Shown here: piece by piece, positions 1,769-6,463 of the stretch
Layout: each line of letters starts with the position of its first letter
Position numbering within the stretch: the stretch's first letter is position 1
Assembly: GCA_001824435.1 (NCBI GenBank)
Contig: MHXH01000015.1
Coordinates: 1-41,293 of the forward strand
DNA length: 41,293 nt
Origin: Parcubacteria group bacterium RIFCSPLOWO2_01_FULL_48_18
GTDB lineage: Bacteria; Patescibacteriota; Minisyncoccia; UBA6257; WO2-01-48-18
Reading direction: 5' to 3'
Translations under genes and position numbers: made by a program
The notes under the pieces: generated by a model
Database searches by the model: none
What the model was told of the DNA's origin: nothing
What the model saw: only the letters and a program-made list of their open reading frames with translations

Positions 1769-2374
1769 ATGAAGGTGGACTATCCTTTTAAAAGATTTCT
1801 TGATGTGCTTGGCGCCGCGGTCGGCCTCATCGTTATTGTCCCGTTTGTTCCGATTATCGCGGCGGCGATAAAATTGAACAGCCGGGGGCCGTTGGTGGTA
1901 AAACTAGAAAGAGTAAGCGGCGGTAAGATAATAAAAGTATATAAATTTCGTTCGATGGTGGACGGCGCCCACGCGATGAAACCGAGCCTGGCGCGCCTCA
2001 ATGAACGAACAGACGGCCCGTTTTTTAAGATCAAGAACGACCCGCGTATCACGCGCGCCGGAAGAATATTACGAAAATTCCGCCTCGATGAATTCCCCCA
2101 GCTTTTTAACGTCTTTAAAGGAGAGTTGAGTCTTGTGGGTCCCCGGCCGCATGAGTCCGAAGAGGTGGAGAAGTATCCTCCAGAGCACCGCACGATCGTT
2201 CTTGCGAAGGCCGGCGTCACAGGCCTCTCACAGGTGAATGGGGCATCAAGCCTGCCCTATTTGAGAGAGCTGGAACTCGATAAACATTACATCGAGAATG
2301 TATCGCTATGGCTGGATTTGAAAATTATTGCAAAGACAATCAAAATCATTTTTTCTGACCCCACTGCAGTTTAA
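1769..2374 (+). CDS. polyprenyl-phosphate sugar-1-phosphate transferase
   Basis: Bacterial sugar transferase (PF02397 type) that moves a sugar-1-phosphate from a nucleotide sugar to undecaprenyl phosphate, starting glycan assembly on the inner membrane face. Visible: one N-terminal hydrophobic segment (about residues 12-35), then KFRSM, DPRITRAG, LDEFPQLFNVFKGELSLVG and GPRPHE, all conserved blocks of the family, and a C-terminal amphipathic region. At 201 residues it is the short catalytic-core form, without the N-terminal multi-pass region of WbaP/WcaJ. It follows the DUF1648-like gene by three bases. The downstream glycosyltransferases, MurJ and DUF4012 protein suggest a common surface-glycan pathway now interrupted by the DGR cassette. 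The sugar cannot be told from sequence. Confidence 0.93.
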   Translation: MKVDYPFKRFLDVLGAAVGLIVIVPFVPIIAAAIKLNSRGPLVVKLERVSGGKIIKVYKFRSMVDGAHAMKPSLARLNERTDGPFFKIKNDPRITRAGRILRKFRLDEFPQLFNVFKGELSLVGPRPHESEEVEKYPPEHRTIVLAKAGVTGLSQVNGASSLPYLRELELDKHYIENVSLWLDLKIIAKTIKIIFSDPTAV

Positions 2375-2399
2375 CAAAGTACTCAGGACATGTTATAAT
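2371..2399 (+). promoter_or_regulatory. sigma-70-type promoter for the DGR target gene
   Basis: TTAACA (2371-2376), 17 bases, TATAAT (2394-2399). The -35 box overlaps the stop codon of the sugar transferase. Transcription from here would give a leader of about 165 bases with a long hairpin before the DGR target gene. Confidence 0.7.
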
Positions 2400-2568: not shown

Positions 2569-3234
2569 ATGGCAAGGCGGACTGGTGTTACGGGTGCTGG
2601 TCTTGGTTTCATCACCGACTTTCTGACGAGCTTTCGTCAGGCTATTAAGGACGCTGGTGGCGAGTATAAAGACATCTTGGTTGCGGATCCAACTACGGAG
2701 ACCGGAAGGGTGTTTTTGGCGAAGTGGGCGCAGGATGTCGTCCAAGCTGCGCGTGGAACCGCGAATGTATTTCCGATCTGGAAGACTATCCAGCTCGGAA
2801 CCTACCGGTCTGCGAAGGAACTTCTCGAGGCGTTCGAAGCCGGTGGATACCGCGTGAGTAGTTGGGCGAGCGACATCTTGAATAGGGTTGTCGTGAGCAC
2901 AGCGCTAACGACGATTGATCTGGTCGTTGTCTCTGTTGCTGAACTCGGTTTCAAGGACGGTGCGACGTTCAAGCAGATCTGCGAGTGTGCTTTTAAGCTC
3001 GGTTTCGAGTTCTGTCCTGTAGAAGTTGGTGTACAGCTTCGGCTGCAGTATGCCGACCAGCCGATGGGCGAATGGCTCATCATTGCCCATGGGCCGATTT
3101 CTGGCTCGGGCGGCGTCCTCGACGTGTTCCGCGTGGGACACGACCGCGGTGGTCGGTGGTTGGATGGCGGCAGCGGCTACTCCGGCAGCTTCTGGTCTGG
3201 CGGCAACCGGTTCGTCTTCGCCCGGCGCAAGTAG
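2569..3234 (+). CDS. DGR target protein with C-terminal variable C-type-lectin-like domain
   Basis: 221-residue protein whose last 45 codons are the variable repeat of a diversity-generating retroelement. Its C-terminus (RVGHDRGGRWLDGGSG, then FWSGGNRFVFARR) has the R-W-L, F-W and R-F-V-F framework of DGR target proteins with a C-type-lectin fold, where variable residues form a binding surface. Residues about 115-160 (DLVVVSVAELGF, EVGVQLRLQY, GEWLIIA) match a region often found before the variable domain in such proteins. No signal peptide or membrane helix is seen, so its location is unclear. AAGGAG precedes the ATG by a few bases. Of 20 mismatches between the variable and template repeats, 18 are at template adenines. 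Wild-type ligand unknown; a role in surface or host recognition is inference. Confidence 0.9.
   Translation: MARRTGVTGAGLGFITDFLTSFRQAIKDAGGEYKDILVADPTTETGRVFLAKWAQDVVQAARGTANVFPIWKTIQLGTYRSAKELLEAFEAGGYRVSSWASDILNRVVVSTALTTIDLVVVSVAELGFKDGATFKQICECAFKLGFEFCPVEVGVQLRLQYADQPMGEWLIIAHGPISGSGGVLDVFRVGHDRGGRWLDGGSGYSGSFWSGGNRFVFARRK
3097..3230 (+). repeat. DGR variable repeat (VR)
   Basis: Aligns without gaps to 3580-3713 (offset 483). Differences at template adenines: VR positions 3104, 3110, 3115, 3116, 3121, 3130, 3131, 3137, 3145, 3146, 3149, 3163, 3166, 3170, 3173, 3178, 3185 and 3188 (14 to G, 2 to C, 2 to T). Only 3120 (T to C) and 3165 (C to T) are not at an adenine. The last 42 bases (3189-3230) are identical and probably contain the initiation-of-mutagenic-homing site; they end just before the stop codon. 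Confidence 0.95.
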
Positions 3235-3302
3235 CGCTCGGATCTTGAACCTCGGGTCTTGTACTTTGACCCTTGGAACTTTGTCCTCCGCGCGCATCAA
3301 AA

Positions 3303-3345
3303 TGCCCGGTGTTCCAATAAAGGAATGCCGGGCAGTTGTATTTTT
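3303..3345 (+). terminator. hairpin terminator after the DGR target gene
   Basis: Stem TGCCCGG plus TTCC (3303-3315) pairs with GGAA plus CCGGGCA (3322-3334) around a 6-base loop, with a 2-base internal mismatch. A T-rich stretch (GTTGTATTTTTG) follows. It may also be the stem-loop that commonly lies downstream of DGR variable repeats. Confidence 0.65.
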
Positions 3346-3579
3346 GATATTATTAAATTGGTAGTAGGTAAATATGCAGGAGGTTACGGCTTCCTGATGC
3401 CGAATCCAGTATCCATACATCGGGTGTGTCGCTGACTATGGTTGGTGACAGAGTGGTGTATGCAGACACTTCATAAAAAATGAAGCTACTTGGTGTAGTA
3501 TGCTCGGTGAGTTTAGCTCGCAAATACGATTCAATCCCGAGAGCATTCAAGGGGTGGTGGCACGGACGGCATGCTATAC

Positions 3580-3713
3580 ATTTCTGACTCGGACGGCAAC
3601 CTTAACGTGTTCAACGTGGAACACGACAACGATGGTCGGTGGTTGAACAGCGACAACGGCAACTCCGACAACTTCTGGTCTGGCGGCAACCGGTTCGTCT
3701 TCGCCCGGCGCAA
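3580..3713 (+). repeat. DGR template repeat (TR)
   Basis: Non-coding template copy of the variable repeat, same strand, about 350 bases after it. Read in the target frame it is rich in AAC/GAC codons (for example NDGRWLNSDNGNSDNFW), the codons that adenine mutagenesis diversifies best. It holds 31 adenines, 18 of which are changed in the VR. The 42-base 3' tail is identical to the VR. Known mechanism: TR RNA is copied by the DGR reverse transcriptase with adenine-specific errors and the cDNA replaces the VR. Confidence 0.95.
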
Positions 3714-3728
3714 CTCTCTTCATTTCTT

Positions 3729-3756
3729 CTCCGGTTTTATGCCGGAGTAGTTTTGT
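3729..3756 (+). terminator. short hairpin after the template repeat
   Basis: CTCCGG (3729-3734), a 7-base loop and CCGGAG (3742-3747), followed by TAGTTTTGTTT. It could end the template RNA. It lies just before the reverse transcriptase remnant. Confidence 0.5.
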
Positions 3757-4044
3757 TTATCAAGCTGCCCCTTCCGGACAGTTGCTTCCGGCATAGATTT
3801 TTTAGGTTGGATACATTTTCCGGATCATCGGGCTTTGAGAACCGCTACAAAACGAAGGATGATAAGGAAAGTGGGGGAACATCCGAAACCGGAAATGCTT
3901 ACATCGTATCAAGGGCTTCTCTGGCACGGCAATACTTATGCATTGCAGGAATTGATGTTAAAAAGATATAGTAATGAATATAGGTCTGATGGCGATAGGA
4001 TTATTTTTTCTGATTCAACGAACAATGTAACGGCAGCTTCTTAG
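3751..4044 (+). pseudogene. C-terminal remnant of DGR reverse transcriptase
   Basis: An open frame running from the in-frame TAG at 3748-3750 to the stop at 4042-4044 encodes the end of a retron/DGR-type reverse transcriptase. From about 3778 it reads GIDFLGWIHFPDHRALR, then TATKRRMIRK, then SYQGLLWHGNTYALQ. These are the FLG motif after the palm, the thumb region and the SYxGxLxHxNTY tail of DGR reverse transcriptases. The fingers and palm, including the catalytic YxDD box (normally more than 200 residues), are absent: only about 65 bases separate the template repeat from the homology. A TTG at 3835 could start a short product but would lack all catalytic residues. Its position after the template repeat is a normal DGR order, so I read it as the 3' end of the original gene after a deletion. 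A misassembly is the main alternative. Confidence 0.88.
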
Positions 4045-4127
4045 CTTTTTAGCTTGTAGCTTCTTAGTGTACTGCGTGATTACTGGATATTTAAAGGCGC
4101 TACAAGCTACAAGCTACAAGCTACAAG
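4045..4127 (+). repeat. 7-base tandem repeat with complementary upstream arm
   Basis: Four exact copies of CTACAAG (4100-4127) lie just before the first glycosyltransferase. TAGCTTGTAGC (4050-4060) is complementary to GCTACAAGCTA (4099-4109), so several alternative hairpins can form in the 5' region of that gene. No gene is seen in this stretch. Confidence 0.7.
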
Positions 4128-4133
4128 CTGAAA

Positions 4134-5234
4134 TTGAAAGTAGCCTTAGTCCACGATTATCTCAATCAATACGGAGGAGCAGAACGGGTGCTCGAGGCGA
4201 TTTCCGAGCTTTTTCCCAAAGCGCCAATCTATACGCTTTTTTACGATCCGGAAAAGACCTTTTTTAAATTTGCGCGGCGTACCGTCATTACGTCTCCGCT
4301 TCAGAATATCCCTCTGGTAAAAACGAATCACCGGTTTTTTATCCCCTTGATGCCGCTTGCGGTGAGTTTTTTGGACGCACGACCGTACGACCTCGTCATT
4401 TCCAGTTCGGCAAGTTATGCGAAAGGGGTGAGGAGCGGCAGCGCTTATCACCTGTGTTATTGCCATACGCCTTTGCGTTACGCATGGGAAGACAAAGAAT
4501 ATCTGGTAACGCATCCGGCGCTTCAGTCTTTTCCCATGAAAATAGCCGGCAGCGTACTCGCCGCATACTTGCGTCGATGGGACAGGCGCGCATCAAAAAA
4601 ACCTAATTTGTTTATCGCCAATTCGCGTTTTATTGCAGATAAAATTTCGCGATTCTACGGCCGCGACGCAGCGGTAATGCATCCGCCGGTTGACACCTCT
4701 GTCTTTTATCCGGAAAGAGGGAGAAAGCGCAATTATTTTTTGGCGGTTGGCAGATTTCTTCATTACAAGCGTTTTGACGTAATCATCGAAGCGTTTAATA
4801 AACTTGATGAGCCGCTTGTGATTATCGGTTCCGGTCCCGAAGAGGATCGTTTGAAACGGATGGTATGGAATAAAAGCATTTCCTTTGTGCCGTACGTAGA
4901 AGATGAGCGCGATCTGCGCTTCTATTATAATGGCGCGAGAGCGCTCCTATTCCCGCAAGTGGAAGATTTTGGTTTGACTGCGGCTGAAGCCATTGCGTGC
5001 GGAACTCCGGTCGTAGCATATCGGGCCGGCGGCGCTGTGGAAATTGTGCGAGAAGGAATAAGCGGCTTATTTTTCGATGAGCAAACCCCCGAAGCGATAC
5101 GGGAAGCGGTGAAGCGGTTTAAACGAACTCGTTTTGACAGCCGCAGTGTCGCCAAAGAAGGAAGGCGATTTTCCAAAGAGCGATTTCAGAAGGAATTTTC
5201 GGCAGTACTCTCCGCCCAAGGATTTTTAATTTGA
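4134..5234 (+). CDS. GT4-family glycosyltransferase
   Basis: Retaining GT-B glycosyltransferase that transfers a nucleotide-linked sugar to a lipid- or glycan-bound acceptor at the cytoplasmic face. The 366 residues begin MKVALVHDYLNQYGGAERVL, the usual start of this group with the acceptor-side glycine motif. The C-terminal donor domain starts near residue 200 (NYFLAVGRF, then LVIIGSGPE) and carries the E-x7-E motif in VEDFGLTAAEAIACGTPV. The start is a TTG; no ATG fits and no Shine-Dalgarno is visible, as the tandem repeat lies directly upstream. The stop overlaps the start of the next glycosyltransferase. Related to WbaZ-like mannosyltransferases, but the sugar is not predictable. Confidence 0.9.
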   Translation: MKVALVHDYLNQYGGAERVLEAISELFPKAPIYTLFYDPEKTFFKFARRTVITSPLQNIPLVKTNHRFFIPLMPLAVSFLDARPYDLVISSSASYAKGVRSGSAYHLCYCHTPLRYAWEDKEYLVTHPALQSFPMKIAGSVLAAYLRRWDRRASKKPNLFIANSRFIADKISRFYGRDAAVMHPPVDTSVFYPERGRKRNYFLAVGRFLHYKRFDVIIEAFNKLDEPLVIIGSGPEEDRLKRMVWNKSISFVPYVEDERDLRFYYNGARALLFPQVEDFGLTAAEAIACGTPVVAYRAGGAVEIVREGISGLFFDEQTPEAIREAVKRFKRTRFDSRSVAKEGRRFSKERFQKEFSAVLSAQGFLI

Positions 5235-6463
5235 ACTTGTCAAGGGTACTTATAGATATCCGTTTGCTTTCCTCGGGTAAGACAACCGGCATCGAGGAAT
5301 ACACGCGGCAGATGGTAAAGCATCTGCCCGTGATTGATCGCGACAACGAGTACGCGCTTTTTTATAATTCATTCAAGCGGCGGGAGATAGAATTAGAATG
5401 GGGTGATTATCCTCCGATTCGCGCGAATCGGAGGATAATCGGCGGACATATCCACAAAAATTCCGAAGCTCCGCAGAACGCGCGAAGCGTTTCCGTTAAA
5501 AAGTACTCCATACCGAATAAACTCTTTGATGCATCGATGCGATTTTTCGGATATCCGAAGATTGATGCATGGATAAGAACCGATCTTATTTTCAGCCCAC
5601 ATTTTAATATTCTTTCGTATTCTCGGGGCGTAAAACGGGTTATGACCGTTCACGACTTGTCGTTTCTCCATCATCCGCAGTTTTTTTCATGGCGCAAGCG
5701 ATTCTGGCACTGGCTTCAAAATTATAAAGAGCAAATTCTCCGCGCCGACCACCTCATTGCCGTATCCGATTATACGAAAGCGGATGTCGTGGAGCTCATC
5801 GGCGTGCCAGCCGAGAAGATTACGCGGATTTATTCCGGCATAGACGCTTCTTTTAGGAAAATCTCTCTGGACGACGAAGAGATGCAAAAATATAAAAGGC
5901 AGCACGCCATGACGCGGCCGTTTTTCCTCTATATGGGAGTTTTGGAGCCGCGCAAGAATATCGTCGCCATCATTCGAGCTTTTAACGCGATAAAAGAGGA
6001 TTCTCGTTTCCGTGAATTTCAGCTTGTGCTTGCGGGCTCGGCCGGTTGGCTCTATAATGAGATATTTGAAGAAGCGAGGCGTTCTCGTTGGAAAACGGAC
6101 ATTCGCTTTCTTGGCGAAATAGCGCCTCACGACAGGGTTTATACATATAATCTGGCAGAAGCATTTATCTATCCTTCTTTTTTCGAAGGATTCGGATTTC
6201 CGCCGCTCGAGGCCCAGGCTTGCGGCATTGCGGTGATTGCGTCCAATCGGTCTTCGCTTCCGGAAATACTGGGTAGTTCGGCGCTACTTGTAGACCCGTG
6301 GCGTATTGACGATATCGTGGTAGCCGCGAAAGAGATTGTTTTGTCGCCAAGGTTTAAAGAGAAAATGGTGCAGGCCGGTTTTCAAAATATCAGGCGTTTT
6401 GACTGGAAAAAAACAGCAACCGAAACATTGGAAATATTCAAAATTCAAAATTCTAGATTCTAG
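5231..6463 (+). CDS. GT4-family glycosyltransferase with internal palindromic insertion
   Basis: Second GT-B glycosyltransferase (410 residues), probably adding the next sugar of the same glycan. It starts with VLIDIRLLSSGKTTGIEEYT, continues with VMTVHDLSFLHHP and the acceptor-domain end AVSDYTKADV, then the donor domain from about residue 232 (FFLYMGVLEPRKN, LVLAGSAGW) with the E-x7-E motif in FEGFGFPPLEAQACG. It starts with TTG overlapping the previous stop (TTGA), so translation is coupled. Codons for DYPPIRANRRII (about residues 59-70) are a perfect 36-base palindrome, exactly 12 codons, inside a stretch that looks longer than in related proteins; see findings. Confidence 0.9.
   Translation: MNLSRVLIDIRLLSSGKTTGIEEYTRQMVKHLPVIDRDNEYALFYNSFKRREIELEWGDYPPIRANRRIIGGHIHKNSEAPQNARSVSVKKYSIPNKLFDASMRFFGYPKIDAWIRTDLIFSPHFNILSYSRGVKRVMTVHDLSFLHHPQFFSWRKRFWHWLQNYKEQILRADHLIAVSDYTKADVVELIGVPAEKITRIYSGIDASFRKISLDDEEMQKYKRQHAMTRPFFLYMGVLEPRKNIVAIIRAFNAIKEDSRFREFQLVLAGSAGWLYNEIFEEARRSRWKTDIRFLGEIAPHDRVYTYNLAEAFIYPSFFEGFGFPPLEAQACGIAVIASNRSSLPEILGSSALLVDPWRIDDIVVAAKEIVLSPRFKEKMVQAGFQNIRRFDWKKTATETLEIFKIQNSRF
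5405..5440 (+). repeat. 36-base perfect palindrome inside a coding region
   Basis: The half-site GATTATCCTCCGATTCGC (5405-5422) is followed directly by its exact reverse complement (5423-5440). Its length is a multiple of three and the reading frame continues through it. No flanking target duplication is visible. Confidence 0.95.

Follow-up and report, generated by a model that had tools for sequence, protein, structure and literature searches.

The window (the whole stretch of 41,293 nucleotides that was analysed) probably carries a diversity-generating retroelement (DGR) stripped of its proteins, which would have been disarmed recently or depend at most on proteins supplied in trans. Comparison with related loci shows that a self-contained DGR-RNA unit is retained, made up of a promoter-like site, a predicted structured leader, a template repeat (TR) and a terminator-like hairpin, next to a target gene that ends in a variable repeat (VR) (Table 1). 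The source genome is a 1.21-Mb draft in 29 contigs, estimated to be 95.9% complete, with about 4% missing. The preliminary description of this DNA had assumed a working cassette, which is not supported, since avd and the reverse transcriptase (RT) gene are deleted and the assembly yielded no RT.

Table 1. Features of the cassette in the window
Feature	Position	Strand	Basis or remark
Promoter-like site of target gene	2371..2399	+	TTAACA-17-TATAAT, 11/12, extended -10
DGR target gene, 221 aa	2569..3234	+	ORF; helical N-terminus, then conserved 154-aa domain with VR at its end
Variable repeat (VR)	3097..3230	+	Ungapped alignment with TR
Intrinsic terminator-like hairpin 3' of target gene	3303..3334	+
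Extended -10 box of DGR RNA (TG-A-TATTAT)	3345..3353	+	6 nt upstream of conserved GG start
5' domain of DGR RNA leader	3360..3407	+	Three covarying helices
3' domain of DGR RNA leader (model R1)	3479..3582	+	11-bp closing stem and two hairpins, to TR start
Template repeat (TR)	3580..3713	+	Ungapped alignment with VR
avd remnant, last 16 codons and stop (GQLDKQNYSGIKPEKK*)	3720..3770	-	By-eye alignment with relatives' Avd C-termini
Terminator-like hairpin with T-rich tail, directly 3' of TR	3729..3747	+
Deletion junction; N-terminal part of avd and RT codons 1 to ~279 gone	3768..3775		Comparison with relatives
DGR reverse transcriptase remnant, last ~62 codons	3775..3966	+	Frame open to 4044

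The repeat pair

VR and TR align without gaps over 134 bases at an offset of 483, and their similarity falls off immediately beyond the repeat limits. The pair differs at 20 positions (TR>VR: 14 A>G, 2 A>T, 2 A>C, 1 T>C and 1 C>T), so that 18 of the 31 TR adenines are affected, against 2 of the 103 other TR bases (Fisher exact p = 3.4e-12). The last mismatch lies at 3188 and is followed by 42 identical bases up to the repeat end. With regard to the IMH/IMH* region, divergence sets in after these terminal bases, and 3' of VR merely a weak inverted repeat was seen by eye. Realignment thus reproduced the geometry given in the preliminary description (length, offset, 18 of 20 differences at adenines and identical end), and VR, as stated there, forms the 3' end of an ORF. 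The two non-adenine differences (3120 and 3165) each occupy a third codon position of the target frame, in which AAC and GAC codons are abundant in TR. A DNA search revealed no further TR copies in the genome.

DGR-type mutagenic retrohoming specific to adenines, already put forward from the window's letters, is supported as the source of the pair by related Patescibacteria, where homologous targets belong to complete cassettes with Avd and a DGR-type RT. That we are dealing with an ordinary imperfect duplication, whose differences fell on adenines by chance, has a negligible probability. Its one point in favour is that no RT gene adjoins the pair; the adenine bias (p = 3e-12), the presence of RT and avd remnants where they are expected, and homologous loci displaying the same geometry and bias beside a DGR RT and Avd all speak against it, and the complete cassettes refute it. 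Until recently, an RT-Avd complex would have read the template RNA, misincorporating at TR adenines, and the resulting cDNA would have overwritten VR, so that the target protein would have varied at its C-terminal face.

The target gene and its product

Structure prediction, proposed earlier as a check on the 221-aa protein, yielded an AlphaFold model of the C-terminal domain with a pLDDT of 92, and nearly all top matches of this model among PDB structures were C-type lectins (best E 0.04, TM about 0.36-0.46). The C-type-lectin framework claimed in the preliminary description is suggestive only: the model is confident and lectins head the matches, but their scores lie below significance and the protein has no family match in Pfam, PHROG or NCBIfam. 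The modelled domain is suggestive of a lectin fold, which we grade as likely and not as shown because the best PDB matches are not significant. No sequence relatives were found among solved structures, and a single-sequence scan retrieved no close relatives from genome collections, viral collections or phage records. A profile scan gave 131 matches, of which 80 were kept. Of 200 related genomes, 39 contain homologues, and those with a name derive nearly all from Patescibacteria/Parcubacteria MAGs, in line with the Patescibacteria-like genome recognised at the outset. Three target-domain homologues from outside the phylum, in Mycobacterium sp. KBS0706 (L206), Xanthobacteraceae (L221) and Alphaproteobacteria (L234), have no leader RNA or RT nearby, and are possibly transferred or contaminant sequences.

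Domain fusions of the homologues, considered as a clue to function, provided no useful Pfam match; one long frame (L027) has a SpoU methylase match at its far end. Inspection of the target by eye revealed neither a signal peptide nor a membrane segment, and we therefore infer a surface role from the neighbouring genes only. Of note, a long near-perfect hairpin (GCCGCAGTTTTCAGTCC...GGACTGAAAACTGCGGC) lies at 2447-2490, in the predicted 5' UTR of the target mRNA, and the target paralogue on contig C21 of the same genome likewise has a hairpin in the predicted 5' UTR position.

Deletion of the avd and RT genes

In relatives of the same order whose cassettes adjoin an RT gene, the target with its VR is followed by the leader, TR, a terminator-like hairpin, avd on the opposite strand and RT on the target strand. 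The Avd proteins of these relatives match Pfam PF22296 (E 5e-9, below the curated cut-off, and 1e-12) and NCBIfam NF033474 (E 7e-15, below the curated cut-off), while their RTs harbour the DGR motif GxxxSQ (LGNLTSQ) together with YADD, which is YMDD or YVDD in two of them. In the window, the end of avd and the end of RT now adjoin. Since these C-terminal remnants lie side by side, a single deletion, estimated from the relatives at ~1.2 kb, would have taken the N-terminal parts of both divergent genes, including ~80% of the RT gene from its start, and it spared every cis element. A full Avd was not found in the window, which retains the 16-codon remnant only.

The RT stub corresponds to residues ~280-341 of ~343 (best E 4e-22 against same-order RT C-termini) and lacks the catalytic YADD and GxxxSQ motifs. 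It shares 52% to 66% identity with the C-termini of intact RTs; its mean identity to them is 0.57, compared with 0.58-0.67 among the intact RTs themselves. Because the stub resembles intact RTs almost as closely as they resemble one another, and because its frame is open, the loss looks recent from these sequence comparisons. Following the deletion, VR would be locked in its most recent variant, and both repeats would drift by ordinary mutation.

It is improbable that the deletion is an artefact of assembly or strain mixture, the true locus having avd and RT and the contig being either falsely joined or derived from a minority variant that bears the deletion. The assembly is a draft, and leader and TR are repeated sequences, as such an error would have it. 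A false join, however, requires a k-mer common to both sides, and merely short similarity exists around 3768-3775; moreover, the junction falls within the remnants of two proteins, and comparable RT stubs are present in four other genomes. In these (L121, L122, L128 and L177) the cassettes are cut down to an RT C-terminal stub, and leader or TR is missing as well in L121, L128 and L177. RT-deletion remnants are thus a recurrent feature of the Patescibacteria DGR group, with which the window shares the leader RNA, the start of TR at the leader end, the VR-TR spacing, a homologous target and the RT and avd remnants.

The leader RNA

Between the target terminator and TR lies a leader of ~220 nt, which ends where TR starts and whose first bases are a conserved GG at 3360. 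A TANNNT box is found 5-8 nt upstream of this GG in 22 of 23 cassettes, 17 of them with TGn, compared with 4.1 in shuffles. In the 5' domain, 97.8% of the cells are paired and the covariation score is 0.76, against 0.35 for shuffled alignments. In the 3' domain, 96.8% are paired and two-sided changes affect 17 of 21 pairs, above all 500 shuffles; with 24 distinct sequences, in an alignment fitted to the model, the figures are 96.6% and 20 of 21 pairs. When the window sequence is folded by itself, the minimum-energy structure contains the main leader helices, and leader loci outside model building were retrieved with E 1e-7 or better.

Of 244 genomes from the order, 54 have a match to the leader model, as do 63 of 380 from the whole phylum, and where a VR/TR pair could be detected, TR almost always starts no more than a few bases from the end of the leader. 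By a hand count in the 200-genome set, RT is present in 40 of 43 leader-bearing genomes and in 46 of 157 others (Fisher 1e-14). Neither Rfam 15, even at a relaxed threshold, nor a literature search provided a match to, or a description of, this RNA. The leader is most likely the part of the template RNA that serves RT-Avd recognition and as a scaffold, and it would recruit the complex; it makes RT recognition in patescibacterial DGRs directly testable. The leader also represents an RT-independent handle on DGRs, which reveals how frequently the hypermutator is lost.

Besides the cassette of the window, a protein search identified one paralogous target in the genome, on contig C21 (L006, 10900-11953, - strand). 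There, the leader RNA is intact, TR ends after ~22 bases and no RT remnant was found; a second cassette of the genome has decayed here independently. The leaders of both cassettes score 113 and 115 bits, among the best of the order (both were in the model seed), and appear more intact than expected of long-dead elements, which counts against a disarmed cassette in the window.

Cassettes without an adjacent RT

No RVT_1 match exists anywhere in the assembly, and the stub is the sole match of the genome to an RT C-terminus. Re-activation of the cassette would require an RT in trans, and none was found in the source genome. Since the assembly is a draft with a missing fraction, an RT could be encoded in sequence that was not assembled, on another replicon or by a phage. 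Avd supply in trans from PF05635 proteins was considered and rejected, as the C16 ones tested are unlike the relatives' Avd and C11 gave no match.

Across 45 RT-bearing loci of relatives, 753 of 785 VR/TR mismatches fall on adenines. Non-adenine mismatches per locus amount to 2.5 in RT-less and 0.71 in RT-bearing cassettes (p 0.006, for loci that are not fully independent and alignments that are in part short), and to 2 in the window. Such an excess is expected once retrohoming ceases, and it could provide a rough clock for cassette death. In several relatives (G097, G116, G055 and G154), RT-less cassettes coexist with an RT elsewhere in the genome, so that being RT-less need not equal being inactive.

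These observations bear on the idea that the cassette of the window is non-autonomous yet active, having kept its cis elements while RT-Avd from an unassembled part of the genome or a mobile element acts on it via the leader. We consider this unlikely, although it deserves more weight than an artefact. In its favour, all cis elements are intact, leader helices included, and the two non-adenine changes of the window sit at third codon positions. Three RT-less leader-TR-VR cassettes of relatives (L122, L124 and L127) have mismatches that are 93-100% adenine-specific and an RT elsewhere in their genome. Furthermore, one genome, G167 (93% complete), carries two RT-less leader-TR-VR cassettes (L133 and L134) with all mismatches at adenines (13/13 and 11/11) and has no RVT_1 match; it is a second case like the window. 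Against trans activity stand the lack of any RT, by family or by RT C-terminus, in 95.9% of the genome, the excess of non-adenine divergence in the RT-less class, and the truncated, decay-like TR of the second copy.

Simple-sequence tracts in avd

In 41 of 57 avd genes of relatives, the first codons contain a poly-C tract of 7-13 residues. Of these 41 genes, 13 are in frame from the ATG, and most others would be so after a change of +/-1 C. Three other avd genes harbour CT16, CT18 or CAAC11 in place of poly-C. RT-bearing loci with tracts at the avd start, which lie on the opposite strand just upstream of RT, include L066, L067, L069, L154, L162, L225 and L227. Such tracts look like phase variation of DGR activity, and no account of phase variation of avd was found among the papers examined. 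Were avd phase-variable, diversification in these bacteria would itself be stochastically switched. In the window, the tract region is gone with the deletion.

We lean slightly towards the broader proposal that patescibacterial DGRs have a distinct architecture, in which a separate template-RNA gene has an extended -10 promoter of its own and bears its conserved, covarying fold on the 5' side of TR, rather than in a 3' spacer as in BPP-1, and avd acts as a simple-sequence contingency gene, the window being a protein-deleted and possibly trans-served copy. With avd as such a gene, slippage would toggle hypermutation on and off. In other respects, one cassette of Candidatus Wolfebacteria (L066 / L163) has leader and TR in tandem duplicate, at offsets of 481 and 962, with TR copies identical over 146 bases.

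Comparison with known systems

Non-autonomous derivatives of mobile retroelements retain the RNA parts that act in cis and have lost their protein genes. The window likewise keeps its cis RNA but, unlike them, gives no sign of cassette mobility. Among described DGRs, the cellular ones of Patescibacteria (CPR), designated 'DGR clade 2' by Roux et al. 2021 (PMC8144416), resemble the window in host group, C-terminal VR and adenine-specific mismatches, and in having targets without recognisable domains or transmembrane parts. The RTs of the relatives are of DGR type, whereas RT and avd are deleted in the window. That survey took as its starting point RT genes with a repeat no more than 1 kb away (PMC8144416), and RT-less loci like this one therefore fell outside its search; more generally, RT-anchored surveys overlook protein-deleted cassettes.

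The prototype DGR of Bordetella phage BPP-1 (PMC12875486, PMC8867640, PMC3240598) shares the adenine mutagenesis between TR and VR and a structured non-coding part of the TR RNA, and possesses Avd and RT, as do the complete relatives of the window. The structured part of the BPP-1 RNA, by which bRT-Avd is recruited, corresponds to the spacer on the 3' side of TR (PMC12875486, PMC8867640), and the arrangement in the window therefore differs: on the leader side, which was the side examined, the conserved fold of the window group precedes TR and stops at its first bases. The window group also differs by a terminator-like hairpin directly after TR and, in the relatives, by an avd that is placed between TR and RT but runs on the opposite strand.

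A precedent for an RT-less TR/VR cassette in a small-genome host is offered by incomplete nanoarchaeal DGRs, such as that of OTU1 contig 26, where the RT ORF is absent (PMC4372165), and the choice between action in trans and decay is common to both. The nanoarchaeal genome, however, has complete DGRs elsewhere (PMC4372165), whereas the genome of the window yielded no RT, and both end points of its deletion can be seen.

Genomic neighbourhood

The surface-glycan cluster mentioned in the preliminary description is real as far as glycan genes are concerned, the cassette being flanked by Bac_transf (1769-2374) and GT4 enzymes (4134-6463). The genes on either side may nevertheless be chance neighbours. 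The sequence GCTACAA / AGCTTGTAGC forms short repeats and inverted repeats at 4029-4130, 3' of the RT stub and immediately ahead of the glycosyltransferase gene.
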